64,000 nucleotides of DNA, from contig NZ_SSHH01000001.1 in assembly GCF_004965515.1 (NCBI RefSeq), forward strand, positions 1,309,037 through 1,373,036. Reading direction: 5' to 3'. A program made the position numbers and the translations under genes. A model generated the notes under the pieces. It saw nothing but the letters and a program-made list of their open reading frames with translations. It was not told the DNA's origin and did no database searches. The stretch comes from Alteraurantiacibacter aquimixticola (GTDB lineage Bacteria > Pseudomonadota > Alphaproteobacteria > Sphingomonadales > Sphingomonadaceae). Within the stretch, counting starts at the first letter, position 1; each line of letters starts with the position of its first letter. Below are positions 5,399 to 9,492 of this stretch, in pieces.

Positions 5399-6454
5399 AT
5401 GACCGACACGAAGATCAACGACACGCGCAAGAAGGAACTGCTTTCGACCGAGGTCGAGCATATCGACATCACGAAGTTCGATGCGCGCCCGATCATCGAT
5501 TCGATGGGCAAGATGAGCTTCACCAGCCGCGATCTCGCGCGCGCCACCGGCATCTACAACCAGATGCTGGAGGACAAGGATTGCACCATCTTCCTCGTCA
5601 TTGCCGGTTCCACCAGTGCAGGTGGCTGCATGGACCTCTATGCAGAGCTGATCCGCAATAACATGGTCGATTGCGTGGTCGCCACCGGCGCCACCATCGT
5701 CGACATGGATTTCTTCGAGGGCCTTGGCCACAAGCACTACCAGGCGCTGGAAATCCCCGACGACGACACGCTGCGCTCGCTCTATATCGACCGCATCTAT
5801 GACACCTATATCGACGAGGAGCAGCTGCAGGACTGCGACTTCACGATCAACAAGATCGCGAATGCCCTGGAGCCCAAGGCCTATTCCAGCCGCGCTTTCA
5901 TCCGCGAGATGGGCAAGTACCTTGTCGAGCACGGCAAGAAGGAGAACAGCCTCGTCAAGCTCGCCTATGAGCATGACGTGCCGATCTTCTGCCCGGCCTT
6001 CGTCGATTCCTCTGCCGGTTTCGGCCTGGTGAAGCACCAGGTGGACCGCATGAAGGAAGGCAAGCCTTACATGATGATCGATGCGATCGCCGATTTCCGC
6101 GAGCTCACCGACATCAAGATCGAGGCGGGCGAAAGCGGCCTGCTGATGGTCGGCGGCGGCGTGCCGAAGAACTTCATTCAGGATACGGTCGTTTGCGCCG
6201 AAATCCTGGGCCATGAAGACGTGGCGGTCCACAAATATGCCGTGCAGATCACCGTCGCCGATGTACGCGACGGTGCCTGCTCCTCTTCCACGCTGCAGGA
6301 AGCGGCGAGCTGGGGCAAGGTCAACACCGGGATCGAACAGATGGTCTTTGCCGAGGCCGGCTCGGTCATGCCGCTGCTGGCCTCCGACGCCTATCACCGC
6401 GAGCACTGGAAGACGCGCGAGAAGCGCCGCTGGGCCAAGCTGTTCGACAAGTAG
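5399..6454 (+). CDS. Deoxyhypusine synthase family protein (polyamine aminobutyl/propyl transferase-like)
   Basis: 351-residue NAD-dependent enzyme of the deoxyhypusine synthase (DHS) superfamily. In bacteria, which lack eIF5A, DHS homologues act on free polyamines, for example as homospermidine synthases. Family marks are AGSTSAGG near residue 68, the C-terminal SWGKV and the PLL near the end. Aligned by eye to eukaryotic DHS, the catalytic lysine of the VKVYAD motif falls on Met315 (EQMVFAE), so the imine-forming lysine appears to be missing. An ornithine decarboxylase gene 1.8 kb downstream could supply putrescine. The frame stays open far upstream over the divergent dehydratase, but ATG 5399 follows a GGAGG and the conserved protein begins there. 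Confidence 0.88.
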   Translation: MTDTKINDTRKKELLSTEVEHIDITKFDARPIIDSMGKMSFTSRDLARATGIYNQMLEDKDCTIFLVIAGSTSAGGCMDLYAELIRNNMVDCVVATGATIVDMDFFEGLGHKHYQALEIPDDDTLRSLYIDRIYDTYIDEEQLQDCDFTINKIANALEPKAYSSRAFIREMGKYLVEHGKKENSLVKLAYEHDVPIFCPAFVDSSAGFGLVKHQVDRMKEGKPYMMIDAIADFRELTDIKIEAGESGLLMVGGGVPKNFIQDTVVCAEILGHEDVAVHKYAVQITVADVRDGACSSSTLQEAASWGKVNTGIEQMVFAEAGSVMPLLASDAYHREHWKTREKRRWAKLFDK

Positions 6455-7582: not shown

Positions 7583-8131
7583 ATGGAATGGATTCTTATC
7601 GGCGTCGTCGTCCTGGTGGGCATCATGCTCATCGGCATCTACAACCGGCTTGTGGCGCTGCGTCAGAACGTCAACCAGGGCGTGGCGGATATCGATGCGC
7701 AGCTGCGCCAGCGGCATGACCTCATTCCCAACCTGGTGAACACGGTGAAGGGCTATGCCGCGCACGAGCAGGAAACGCTCGATGCGGTGATTTCCGCACG
7801 CAACACCGCATCACAGGGCGCGCTGGAATCGGGCAATGAGGCGCAGCTTCGCGTCGCGCTCGACCGCCTTCTGGCTTTGGGCGAGGCCTATCCCGACCTC
7901 AAGGCTTCCGCCAACTTCCAGGAATTGCAGCGTGAACTGGCCGATGTAGAAGACAAGCTGGCCGCCGCGCGCCGCGCGCTCAACGCTGCTGTTTCGCGTT
8001 ACAATACAGGGATTCAGAGCTTCCCGGCGGTGCTCTTCGCCGGCATTCTGGGCTTTCGCGAAGCCGATTTTCACCGGCTCGACGACAGTGAGAAGGGCAC
8101 GGTGGAGGCCGTGCCGGACGTCGCCTTCTGA
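7583..8131 (+). CDS. lemA: LemA family protein
   Basis: 182 residues with one N-terminal membrane helix (WILIGVVVLVGIMLIGIYN) and then the alpha-helical LemA domain, including the conserved stretch RQRHDLIPNLVNTVKGYA and the C-terminal RYNTGIQSFP. The bulk of the protein is expected outside the cytoplasm. The molecular function of LemA is unknown; family members are envelope proteins often linked to DUF3137 or TPM-domain partners. It is divergent from the DUF3137 gene, with a shared promoter region of 68 bases. Confidence 0.94.
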   Translation: MEWILIGVVVLVGIMLIGIYNRLVALRQNVNQGVADIDAQLRQRHDLIPNLVNTVKGYAAHEQETLDAVISARNTASQGALESGNEAQLRVALDRLLALGEAYPDLKASANFQELQRELADVEDKLAAARRALNAAVSRYNTGIQSFPAVLFAGILGFREADFHRLDDSEKGTVEAVPDVAF

Positions 8132-8149
8132 TTTTCTCGGAACACTTCG

Positions 8150-8292
8150 TCGAATGATGCGTGGGAAGACCATGCGTTTTGTTATTGCATCATTCATCCG
8201 CCTCCTTATATGCCGCGCTTCCGCTGCCCCAAGGGGACTTCCAACCGCAAGGCAGCTTGTGAGTACTAACGTTCTGGGGGTCCCTTGAATTG
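8150..8292 (+). ncRNA. Structured leader of the ornithine decarboxylase gene (speF-type motif)
   Basis: The 158-base gap before the decarboxylase gene holds clear RNA structure. A perfect 9-bp inverted repeat, GAATGATGC at 8152-8160 and GCATCATTC at 8187-8195, encloses GTGGGAAGACCATG, the ribosome site and start of a short open frame. Two mutually exclusive 3' stems follow: GCTGCC (8223-8228) with GGCAGC (8251-8256), and CAAGGGGAC (8230-8238) with GTCCCTTG (8280-8287, one bulge). The second would cover the stretch between the GGGGG ribosome site and the TTG start. Position and gene match the speF leader motif reported upstream of alphaproteobacterial ornithine decarboxylases. A polyamine-responsive switch is inferred. 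No covariance search was possible. Confidence 0.7.
8172..8288 (+). CDS. Candidate leader peptide upstream of ornithine decarboxylase
   Basis: A 38-codon frame with ATG at 8172, preceded by GTGGGAAG. Its TGA (8286-8288) ends one base before the TTG start of the decarboxylase. The product begins MRFVIASFIRLLICRAS, hydrophobic then basic, with no similarity I can name. Its start lies in the loop of a perfect 9-bp stem, and its 3' half runs through the stems that could cover the decarboxylase ribosome site. This arrangement allows translation of the frame to open or close the downstream start. It may instead be a chance frame inside a purely structural RNA; codon-level conservation would decide. 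Confidence 0.4.
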   Translation: MRFVIASFIRLLICRASAAPRGLPTARQLVSTNVLGVP

Positions 8293-9492
8293 CACAGTTA
8301 TCCCGACGCAAAAGCTGTAGTCCGCGCCCTTTCGCCGGATGAGGCAGTGATTCTGAACCGCCCGCATGCCGCGGCGCGGGCAGCACGCTTTTTTGCCGAG
8401 AAGTTTCCGGGCACCGCCATGTATGCGGTGAAGGCGAATCCCTCGCCCGATCTGATTCGCATCCTGTGGGACGCGGGCATCACCCATTACGACGTCGCCT
8501 CCATCGCCGAAGTGCGCATGGTGCGCGAAGTCCTGCCGGAAGCGAAGCTGTGCTTCATGCATCCCGTGAAGACCTCCAGCGCCATTCGCGAGGCCTATTT
8601 CACCCATGGCGTGAGGACTTTCAGCCTCGATACGCTGGAAGAACTGGCGAAGATCGTCGACGCGACGACCAATGAGGCGGGCGAAGCAGCAAGCGACCTG
8701 CAGCTGCTGGTGCGCCTGCGCGTTTCTTCCGAACATTCCGAGCTCTCTCTGGCAGCGAAGTTCGGTGTCGACCTCGCCGATGCAGCGCCGCTGCTGCAGG
8801 AAACCCGCCAGCATTGCGATGCGTTGGGCATCTGCTTCCATGTCGGCAGCCAGGCGATGACGCCCTTTGCCTATGTCCAGGCGCTGGAACGCGTGCGCGC
8901 CGCGATTGCCGAGGCGGCTGTGACCGTGGACATCGTGGATGTCGGTGGCGGTTTCCCCAGCGTCTATCCCGATCTCGATCCGCCGGCGATGGAAGACTAT
9001 TTCGCACAGATCCACCGCCACTTCGAAGCGCTGCCGATTTCCTATTCGGCGGAGCTTTGGGGTGAGCCGGGCCGCGCGCTGTGCGCCGAATATTCCAGCC
9101 TGATCGTGAAGGTGGAAAAGCGCCGCGGGAACGAACTCTACATCAATGACGGCGCCTATGGCGCGCTATTCGATGCCGCGCATGTCGACTGGCGCTTTCC
9201 GGTCGTGGCGCTTGAGGACGACCTTTTGCAGCCGGTCGCGGAATTCTCCTTCTACGGCCCGACCTGTGACGATGCCGATTACATGAAGGGCCCGTTCCTG
9301 CTGCCCGAGGATATCCAGGCCGGCGATTTCATCGAGATCGGCATGCTTGGCGCCTATGGCGCGGCGATGCAGACGCGTTTCAACGGCTTCGGCGCGACGC
9401 AGGGCTATGTGGTGGAGAACGAACCGATGTTCAGCCTCTATCGCGGCGATCGCCCGACGCCTGCCAGCGACAATGTGGTGAGCTTGCGCTGA
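8290..9492 (+). CDS. Ornithine (lysine/ornithine) decarboxylase, alanine-racemase fold
   Basis: Converts ornithine to putrescine with PLP. This is the eukaryotic-like, fold type III enzyme: 400 residues, PLP lysine in AVKANPSP near residue 40, the substrate/phosphate region GGGFPS near 220, and the active-site cysteine motif GPTCDDADYM near 327 at the dimer interface. The start is TTG at 8290: the conserved protein begins at HSYPDAKAV and no ATG lies nearby; a GGGGG at 8276-8280 serves as ribosome site. Translation is probably controlled by the structured leader and its short frame. It should supply putrescine for the DHS-like enzyme at 5399. Some relatives also accept lysine. Confidence 0.93.
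   Translation: MHSYPDAKAVVRALSPDEAVILNRPHAAARAARFFAEKFPGTAMYAVKANPSPDLIRILWDAGITHYDVASIAEVRMVREVLPEAKLCFMHPVKTSSAIREAYFTHGVRTFSLDTLEELAKIVDATTNEAGEAASDLQLLVRLRVSSEHSELSLAAKFGVDLADAAPLLQETRQHCDALGICFHVGSQAMTPFAYVQALERVRAAIAEAAVTVDIVDVGGGFPSVYPDLDPPAMEDYFAQIHRHFEALPISYSAELWGEPGRALCAEYSSLIVKVEKRRGNELYINDGAYGALFDAAHVDWRFPVVALEDDLLQPVAEFSFYGPTCDDADYMKGPFLLPEDIQAGDFIEIGMLGAYGAAMQTRFNGFGATQGYVVENEPMFSLYRGDRPTPASDNVVSLR

Follow-up and report, generated by a model that had tools for sequence, protein, structure and literature searches.

In E. coli, an ornithine decarboxylase gene is under the control of speFL, a short translated frame, and its ribosome site is covered by an RNA structure. In Salmonella, according to the text on orf34 in PMC6386406, the speF leader carries a short translated frame (orf34) that controls the ornithine decarboxylase gene, with an RNA structure over the ribosome site, and orf34 acts via Rho termination, unfolding and RNase G. 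Ornithine decarboxylase is the commitment step towards polyamines, and a further control element of its gene has been published, the odc1 (uORF-25-1) motif of Brewer et al. 2021 (RNA Biol 18:2417, PMC8632094), the odc1 section of which names no ligand and gives a metabolite riboswitch as one possibility. That section describes 272 alphaproteobacterial examples with a long extended stem and a large loop, in which the right arm holds and masks the ribosome site, bases near the 5′ end pair into the loop as a pseudoknot, and the UUG of an 11-codon uORF is followed, after two bases, by the UUG of the decarboxylase. For the Sphingomonas echinoides leader, the same section reports lacZ fusions in E. 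coli in which both starts were used, the uORF start approximately three-fold more. Of three changes made at strictly conserved positions ahead of the pseudoknot bases, all led to the loss of enzyme-frame expression, and two had little effect on the uORF. On uORF length, the odc1 text states "no evidence for variation". No later work on odc1 was found in a literature search limited to open-licence PMC papers; passages of PMC11109978 mention neither ornithine nor odc, and passages of PMC10619552 cover the polyamines of one Sphingomonas.

The decarboxylase locus and the odc1 motif

We analysed the leader of an ornithine decarboxylase gene in a 64,000-nucleotide stretch of the Alteraurantiacibacter aquimixticola genome (hereafter the window). 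The PLP-dependent enzyme is encoded at 8290–9492 on the + strand and carries the domains PF02784 and PF00278; its best solved matches are lysine/ornithine decarboxylases. With ATG, GTG or TTG allowed, the enzyme start was TTG in all 159 distinct loci compared. Upstream of the decarboxylase on the same strand, 5492–6385 encodes a deoxyhypusine-synthase-like domain (PF01916, E 6.4e-89), and in Sphingomonas parapaucimobilis (L230) a PLP enzyme behind the leader studied here is directly followed by a gene annotated as deoxyhypusine synthase. These neighbours fit a polyamine setting, and we presume that a deoxyhypusine-synthase-like gene by the decarboxylase possibly serves homospermidine synthesis.

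The leader at 8220–8320 is very probably an odc1 (uORF-25-1) motif, that is, a translational control leader of ornithine decarboxylase that would work as set out in the last section. Compared with the text description in the odc1 section of PMC8632094, as distinct from its consensus drawing, the window contains the features given there, and no difference from that text was found. An extended stem with a large loop holds the ribosome site in its right arm (8232–8243/8275–8286), a pseudoknot links the 5′ end to the loop (8223–8228/8251–8256), the starts read TTG at 8285, AA, and TTG at 8290, the uORF encodes 11 amino acids (8285–8320), and an ornithine decarboxylase gene lies downstream in an alphaproteobacterial host. 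The odc1 element and its coding uORF are already in print (Brewer et al. 2021, PMC8632094). An Rfam scan gave no odc1 match, either in the window at gathering score or in 8000–8500 at E ≤ 10; the matches returned were one tRNA in the window at gathering score and, in 8000–8500 at E ≤ 10, three snoRNA or sRNA matches that were judged to be chance.

The leader had earlier been linked, from the sequence alone, to the alphaproteobacterial speF leader family (RF00518), which belongs to the same gene class in the same bacterial class. That it is a divergent member of this family is scarcely credible: the speF covariance model, when run, gave no match in the window at gathering score nor in 8000–8500 at E ≤ 10, and speF was carried by 11 of 289 class genomes, a sample in which the four family members, the own genome among them, all lacked it. 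The speF loci differ in sequence, and at all 11 of them the enzyme was approximately 30% identical over the aligned part to the decarboxylase studied here. With no match, a different sequence and another decarboxylase lineage, speF was rejected as the identity of the leader.

A separate observation concerns the speF loci themselves, 8 of the 11 having been scanned. At the six loci with both above gathering score (L061, L062, L064, L066, L067 and L068), the Rfam sRNA ar45 shares the strand of the speF leader and ends 7–8 bases ahead of it; ar45 was also found at L070 and L071, where speF fell below gathering score. Instead of being an sRNA in its own right, ar45 may form the beginning of the speF leader.

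The distribution of the leader was determined with model R1, which covers the part of the leader with the two downstream stems. Of the order's 296 genomes, the own genome among them, 212 gave a match; by our count, these comprise 211 of the 213 family genomes and one of the 83 others, the latter weakly (E 5.4e-4). The two family genomes missed were G151 (locus L080) and G155, in which the best decarboxylase match reached only E 2.9e-14. In a class-wide sample, R1 matched 7 of 385 genomes, namely five family members and two weak matches outside the family without GG[GA]GGTC[CT]CTTGA. Both searches used stricter filters, with which weak matches are lost. No convincing further copy was found in the own genome, the next best match having an E of 1.99. 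Named relatives include Aurantiacibacter, Qipengyuania, Novosphingobium, Sphingobium and Sphingomonas, and a plasmid search returned a single record, a Sphingomonas plasmid of 880 kb on which a PLP enzyme is preceded by the same leader. At the DNA level, 8132–8400 matched 36 of 61 genomes (own included), and 29 of the 36 alignments start only at 8201–8214.

Leader RNA, promoter and the longer upstream frame

Leaders were compared in upstream DNA from 100 loci (93 distinct) and in a larger set of 214 loci, which after dropping L085 (no anchor) and L212 (no upstream DNA) gave 159 distinct leaders. The conserved block runs from approximately 8220 to past the enzyme start. Its first helix, the pseudoknot, joins GCTGCC (8223–8228) and GGCAGC (8251–8256) and was a pairing helix in 90 of 93 leaders, in a search with six pairs as the requirement, which excluded L057, L080 and L085. 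Across 86 distinct rows, preselected for a pairing helix, 98.6% of cells were paired; the six cells in which both sides had changed belong to a single pair, where U-A had become A-U in five and C-G in one. In none of 500 shuffles was the paired percentage, the count of doubly changed cells or the covariation score reached; the number of pairs changed on both sides (one of six) was reached by 181 of 500 and the number of pair types by 165 of 500. As a control, slid partners paired in at most 49.2%. Preceding the second strand is the conserved AACCGCAA (8243–8250); ACCG[CT]AAGG plus second strand was present in 142 of the 159 distinct leaders, and the core CG[CT]AAGG plus second strand was absent in 8.

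The ribosome-site stem joins AGGGGACTTCCA (8232–8243), taken as P1 of the 2021 paper, with TGGGGGTCCCTT (8275–8286), which includes the Shine-Dalgarno GGGGG (8276–8280; GGAGG in 15 of 90 leaders), extends into the uORF start codon and is followed by GAATTG. Between GGCAGC and this 3′ strand lies a loop, the length of which varies among leaders. In the window the stem has 12 contiguous pairs, three of them G-U; at least nine contiguous pairs were found in 80 of 90 distinct leaders, and the central five positions pair in all 90 anchor-bearing leaders (counting was by sequence anchors, and three of 93, L009, L057 and L085, were dropped for lack of one). Little covariation is seen, the observed pairing being reached in 69 of 1000 shuffles of the strands, as would be expected of a stem with the ribosome site in one strand, where the Shine-Dalgarno is held anyway. 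The automatic consensus structure of model R1 missed this stem because the alignment was out of register there. The computed energy of the stem was −18.4 kcal/mol, against −9.0 kcal/mol for the ribosome site with a typed anti-Shine-Dalgarno, and over 20 leaders the folding energy was mildly better than that of simple shuffles (mean z −1.16).

Two stems in this part of the leader had been described in the sequence-only reading as competing. The inverted repeats 8223–8228/8251–8256 and 8230–8235/8282–8287 are indeed present, and R1 recognises this part across the family; competition between them is not needed, since in their supported form (8223–8228/8251–8256 and 8232–8243/8275–8286) the helices share no bases and can coexist as a pseudoknot. 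By the order and spacing of the helices as modelled, an H-type pseudoknot is possible.

Two other foldings were seen in the loop region. At 8247–8260 of the window, GCAAG can pair with CTTGT just downstream, which places the second pseudoknot strand in a loop; this hairpin is used in the minimum-energy fold, and at least five pairs of a GCAAG/CUUGY hairpin were found in 114 of 151 leaders vs approximately 58 of 151 with the downstream bases shuffled. As a candidate alternative hairpin read from the sequence, it is a lead only. In ten leaders (L059, L060, L081, L082, L087, L161, L163, L181, L208 and L210), sequence inserted between pseudoknot strand and ribosome-site stem seems, by eye, to form an extra hairpin, in some of them with bases of the ribosome-site stem; a fold switch in these leaders is conceivable.

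Upstream of the block, a putative promoter has a −35 box TTGCAT (8185–8190) and a −10 box TATATG (8207–8212), both on the + strand, from which transcription would start near 8219–8221, probably within a few bases of 8220. Among 148 of the 159 distinct leaders (the others having no recognisable core or too little DNA), a TATATG-like −10 box ends 8–10 bases before the GCTGCC strand in 123; in 125, 16–17 bases separate the −10-like hexamer from the best −35-like hexamer, which mostly reads TTTACA or TTGCNN. Both boxes come from best-match searches, which always return something. A strict consensus promoter scan of 7900–8400 found none, and the argument for the promoter is therefore one of conservation.

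The predicted transcription start lies 3′ of ATG 8172 and inside a 38-codon frame to which the sequence-only reading had assigned the control: the frame, running from this ATG to a TGA at 8286–8288 (8172–8288, + strand), would be gated by a 9-bp stem (8152–8195, + strand) and couple into the enzyme start. Both exist as described, the stem as a perfect inverted repeat (8152–8160/8187–8195), and the TGA does end one base before TTG 8290. Neither is conserved among the relatives. Of 93 distinct upstream regions, only that of the window has a perfect 9-bp repeat in the matching stretch (−145 to −85). In 23 of the 93 an ATG precedes the TGA in frame, and 28 of them have an ATG, GTG or TTG 31 or more codons upstream; in the close relative L002, a stop interrupts the frame 31 bases ahead of the enzyme start. 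Both the stem and ATG 8172 begin upstream of the promoter and start proposed above and of the block conserved in most relatives, and the fold of 8132–8320 does not stand out from shuffles (z −0.61; 50 of 200 at least as good). The TGA itself is supplied by the conserved CCCTTGARTTG, so its position beside the enzyme start is uninformative on the longer frame. We judge both frame and stem to be chance, and control through them to be highly improbable. What holds of that reading is its outline, namely a structured leader that probably controls translation of the decarboxylase, with the ribosome site covered by one stem and a short frame linked to the start of the enzyme: it sensed a known element correctly and delimited it wrongly.

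The uORF and its overlap with the enzyme gene

The conserved uORF (8285–8320, + strand) starts with TTG, encodes MNCTVIPTQKL in 11 codons and ends with TAG at 8318–8320, overlapping the enzyme gene in another frame. An anchor with the ribosome site and the upstream UUG was found at 212 of the 213 loci having upstream DNA. The uORF has 11 codons in 154 of the 159 distinct leaders, nine codons in two (L040, L092) and 16 codons in two (L179, L208); in L080 the stop is lost and the frame runs to 22 codons. The stops are TAG in 150, TGA in five and TAA in four. The uORF stop is also absent from L085, which has no anchor and stands outside this count. L080 and L085 both failed the pairing-helix search, and their genomes gave no R1 match and a weak one (E 8.7e-7), respectively. 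Seven of the eight leaders without the core CG[CT]AAGG and second strand keep the 11-codon uORF; among the leaders sampled, the uORF is more often retained after loss of the RNA core than the core after loss of the uORF. One leader, L057, still has both UUGs and the 11-codon uORF, although its pseudoknot and the 5′ strand of its ribosome-site stem seem to be gone.

Within the peptide, positions 3, 4 and 6–8 take a restricted set of residues, and the last three residues vary widely (PRL, HGL, HWL, RWG, LLQ, QKL). The stop is held between codons 10 and 17 while the end of the peptide varies, which points to a function for the place of termination. A coding role of the leader, by the 11-codon uORF, is likely. 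The sequence-only reading had thought such a role to be new; it had a different frame in mind, and for the 11-codon UUG uORF of odc1 the role is already in print (odc1 text of PMC8632094).

In the overlap, the wobble base of each enzyme codon is the second base of a uORF codon. Among 156 leaders (L080, L179 and L208 left out; relatedness ignored), His at enzyme codon 2 was CAC in 103 of 104, and His was CAT at codon 3 in 45 of 45, at codon 4 in 36 of 43 and at codon 5 in 22 of 23; from enzyme codon 13 on, 346 CAC stood to 340 CAT. Val at enzyme codon 10 was GTA in 132 of 132, vs 113 of 1,624 further on, and this codon thus supplies the uORF stop. Codon choice in the overlap is extreme, and its direction changes by position. 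A general A/T preference near starts was rejected as its cause, as it cannot flip by position; an RNA constraint on the overlap bases is a possible cause.

Substitutions were counted on a minimum spanning tree of 154 leaders (L080, L179, L208, L040 and L092 left out; relatedness ignored). Enzyme-silent changes that alter the peptide numbered 118 vs 66.6 expected, a lesser enrichment than in the downstream control (431 vs 164.9), and uORF-silent changes that alter the enzyme numbered 64 vs 85.4 expected (control 71 vs 171.7). The uORF peptide is constrained, not residue by residue, and the exact peptide only partly so; a looser enzyme N-terminus may be part of the difference between overlap and control. 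What is conserved here is the fold, the start codons, the stop position and the codon choice.

These data bear on two readings in which one layer of the leader does the sensing. The uORF peptide could itself be the sensor: nascent-chain arrest near the stop with polyamine or ornithine would park a ribosome approximately 28 bases inside the enzyme gene and block 8290, and the fold would set the overall rate only. That the uORF start, the stop position and many codons are held beyond the needs of the enzyme frame speaks for this, as do the restricted residues at positions 3, 4 and 6–8 and the uORF kept in seven of eight leaders without the RNA core, L057 keeping it despite the seeming loss of both helices; leader-frame control is also known for another ornithine decarboxylase gene, Salmonella speF (text on orf34 in PMC6386406). 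Against it, the last three residues vary widely, a variability that seems to us atypical of arrest peptides, the uORF can be 9 or 16 codons long, and the peptide-changing substitutions are many (118 vs 66.6 expected). We regard arrest by the peptide as possible and, on balance, improbable.

In a strict metabolite riboswitch, the possibility named in the odc1 section of PMC8632094, a ligand would stabilise the fold and mask both starts, and the uORF would be a minor by-product. The wide retention of ACCGCAA, the pseudoknot and the ribosome-site stem agrees with this; however, it leaves unexplained the uORF stop supplied by a rare codon (132 of 132 Val), the position-specific codon choice and the core-less leaders with a kept uORF. 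We consider it rather unlikely.

Start selection and relation to known systems

The mechanism that we favour combines the fold with the two starts. An RNA beginning at approximately 8220 would form the 12-bp stem 8232–8243/8275–8286, pairing the Shine-Dalgarno 8276–8280 and the UU of the first UUG, and 8223–8228 would form a pseudoknot with 8251–8256 in the loop. Once the site opens, a 30S subunit would pick one of two UUGs that lie five bases apart and have a common ribosome site: the choice of 8285 would yield an 11-residue peptide ending inside the enzyme gene, the choice of 8290 the enzyme, and a uORF choice would cost one enzyme initiation. The conserved ACCGCAA and the pseudoknot region would favour the enzyme start, and further repression probably comes from the nascent peptide or from the ribosome that terminates its synthesis. 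Feedback by polyamine or ornithine, also proposed in the sequence-only reading, would be plausible, as judged from the gene alone.

A more specific form of this mechanism makes odc1 a start-codon selector, with two frames at one ribosome site, the metabolite being read by the nascent uORF peptide or by the terminating ribosome inside the enzyme gene, and the pseudoknot setting the start ratio. We offer this form as speculative and doubtful; if true, such a selector would represent a type of polyamine feedback that differs from both speFL and riboswitches. The question posed by odc1 is in any case narrowed: the element is near-universal in one family, its uORF is held at the codon level, and the stop position is steadier than the end of the peptide. 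Natural variants, some with the fold lost and the uORF kept and others with both lost, are possible comparison strains.

Among known systems, the speF leader RF00518 is likewise alphaproteobacterial and precedes an ornithine decarboxylase gene, but its sequence and structure are unrelated and its decarboxylase is of another lineage. The orf34 leader of Salmonella, as far as the orf34 text of PMC6386406 describes it, resembles odc1 in having a short translated frame and an RNA structure over the ribosome site, whereas the odc1 uORF is 11 codons long, has its start five bases ahead of that of the enzyme and terminates within the enzyme gene. No conserved separate frame with ATG that, like orf34, closes ahead of the enzyme start was found in the one upstream phase covered, where 23 of 93 leaders have an in-frame ATG. 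In contrast, odc1 as described in its section of PMC8632094 shares with the window the gene, the bacterial class, the stem, the pseudoknot, the UUG starts and the 11-residue peptide. Relatives examined here depart from that text in carrying uORFs of 9 and 16 codons and lost stops, whereas the text reports no evidence for length variation. Relative to that section, the codon choice in the overlap, the 9- and 16-codon uORFs and the uORF kept in seven of eight core-diverged leaders are additions to what has been described for odc1.
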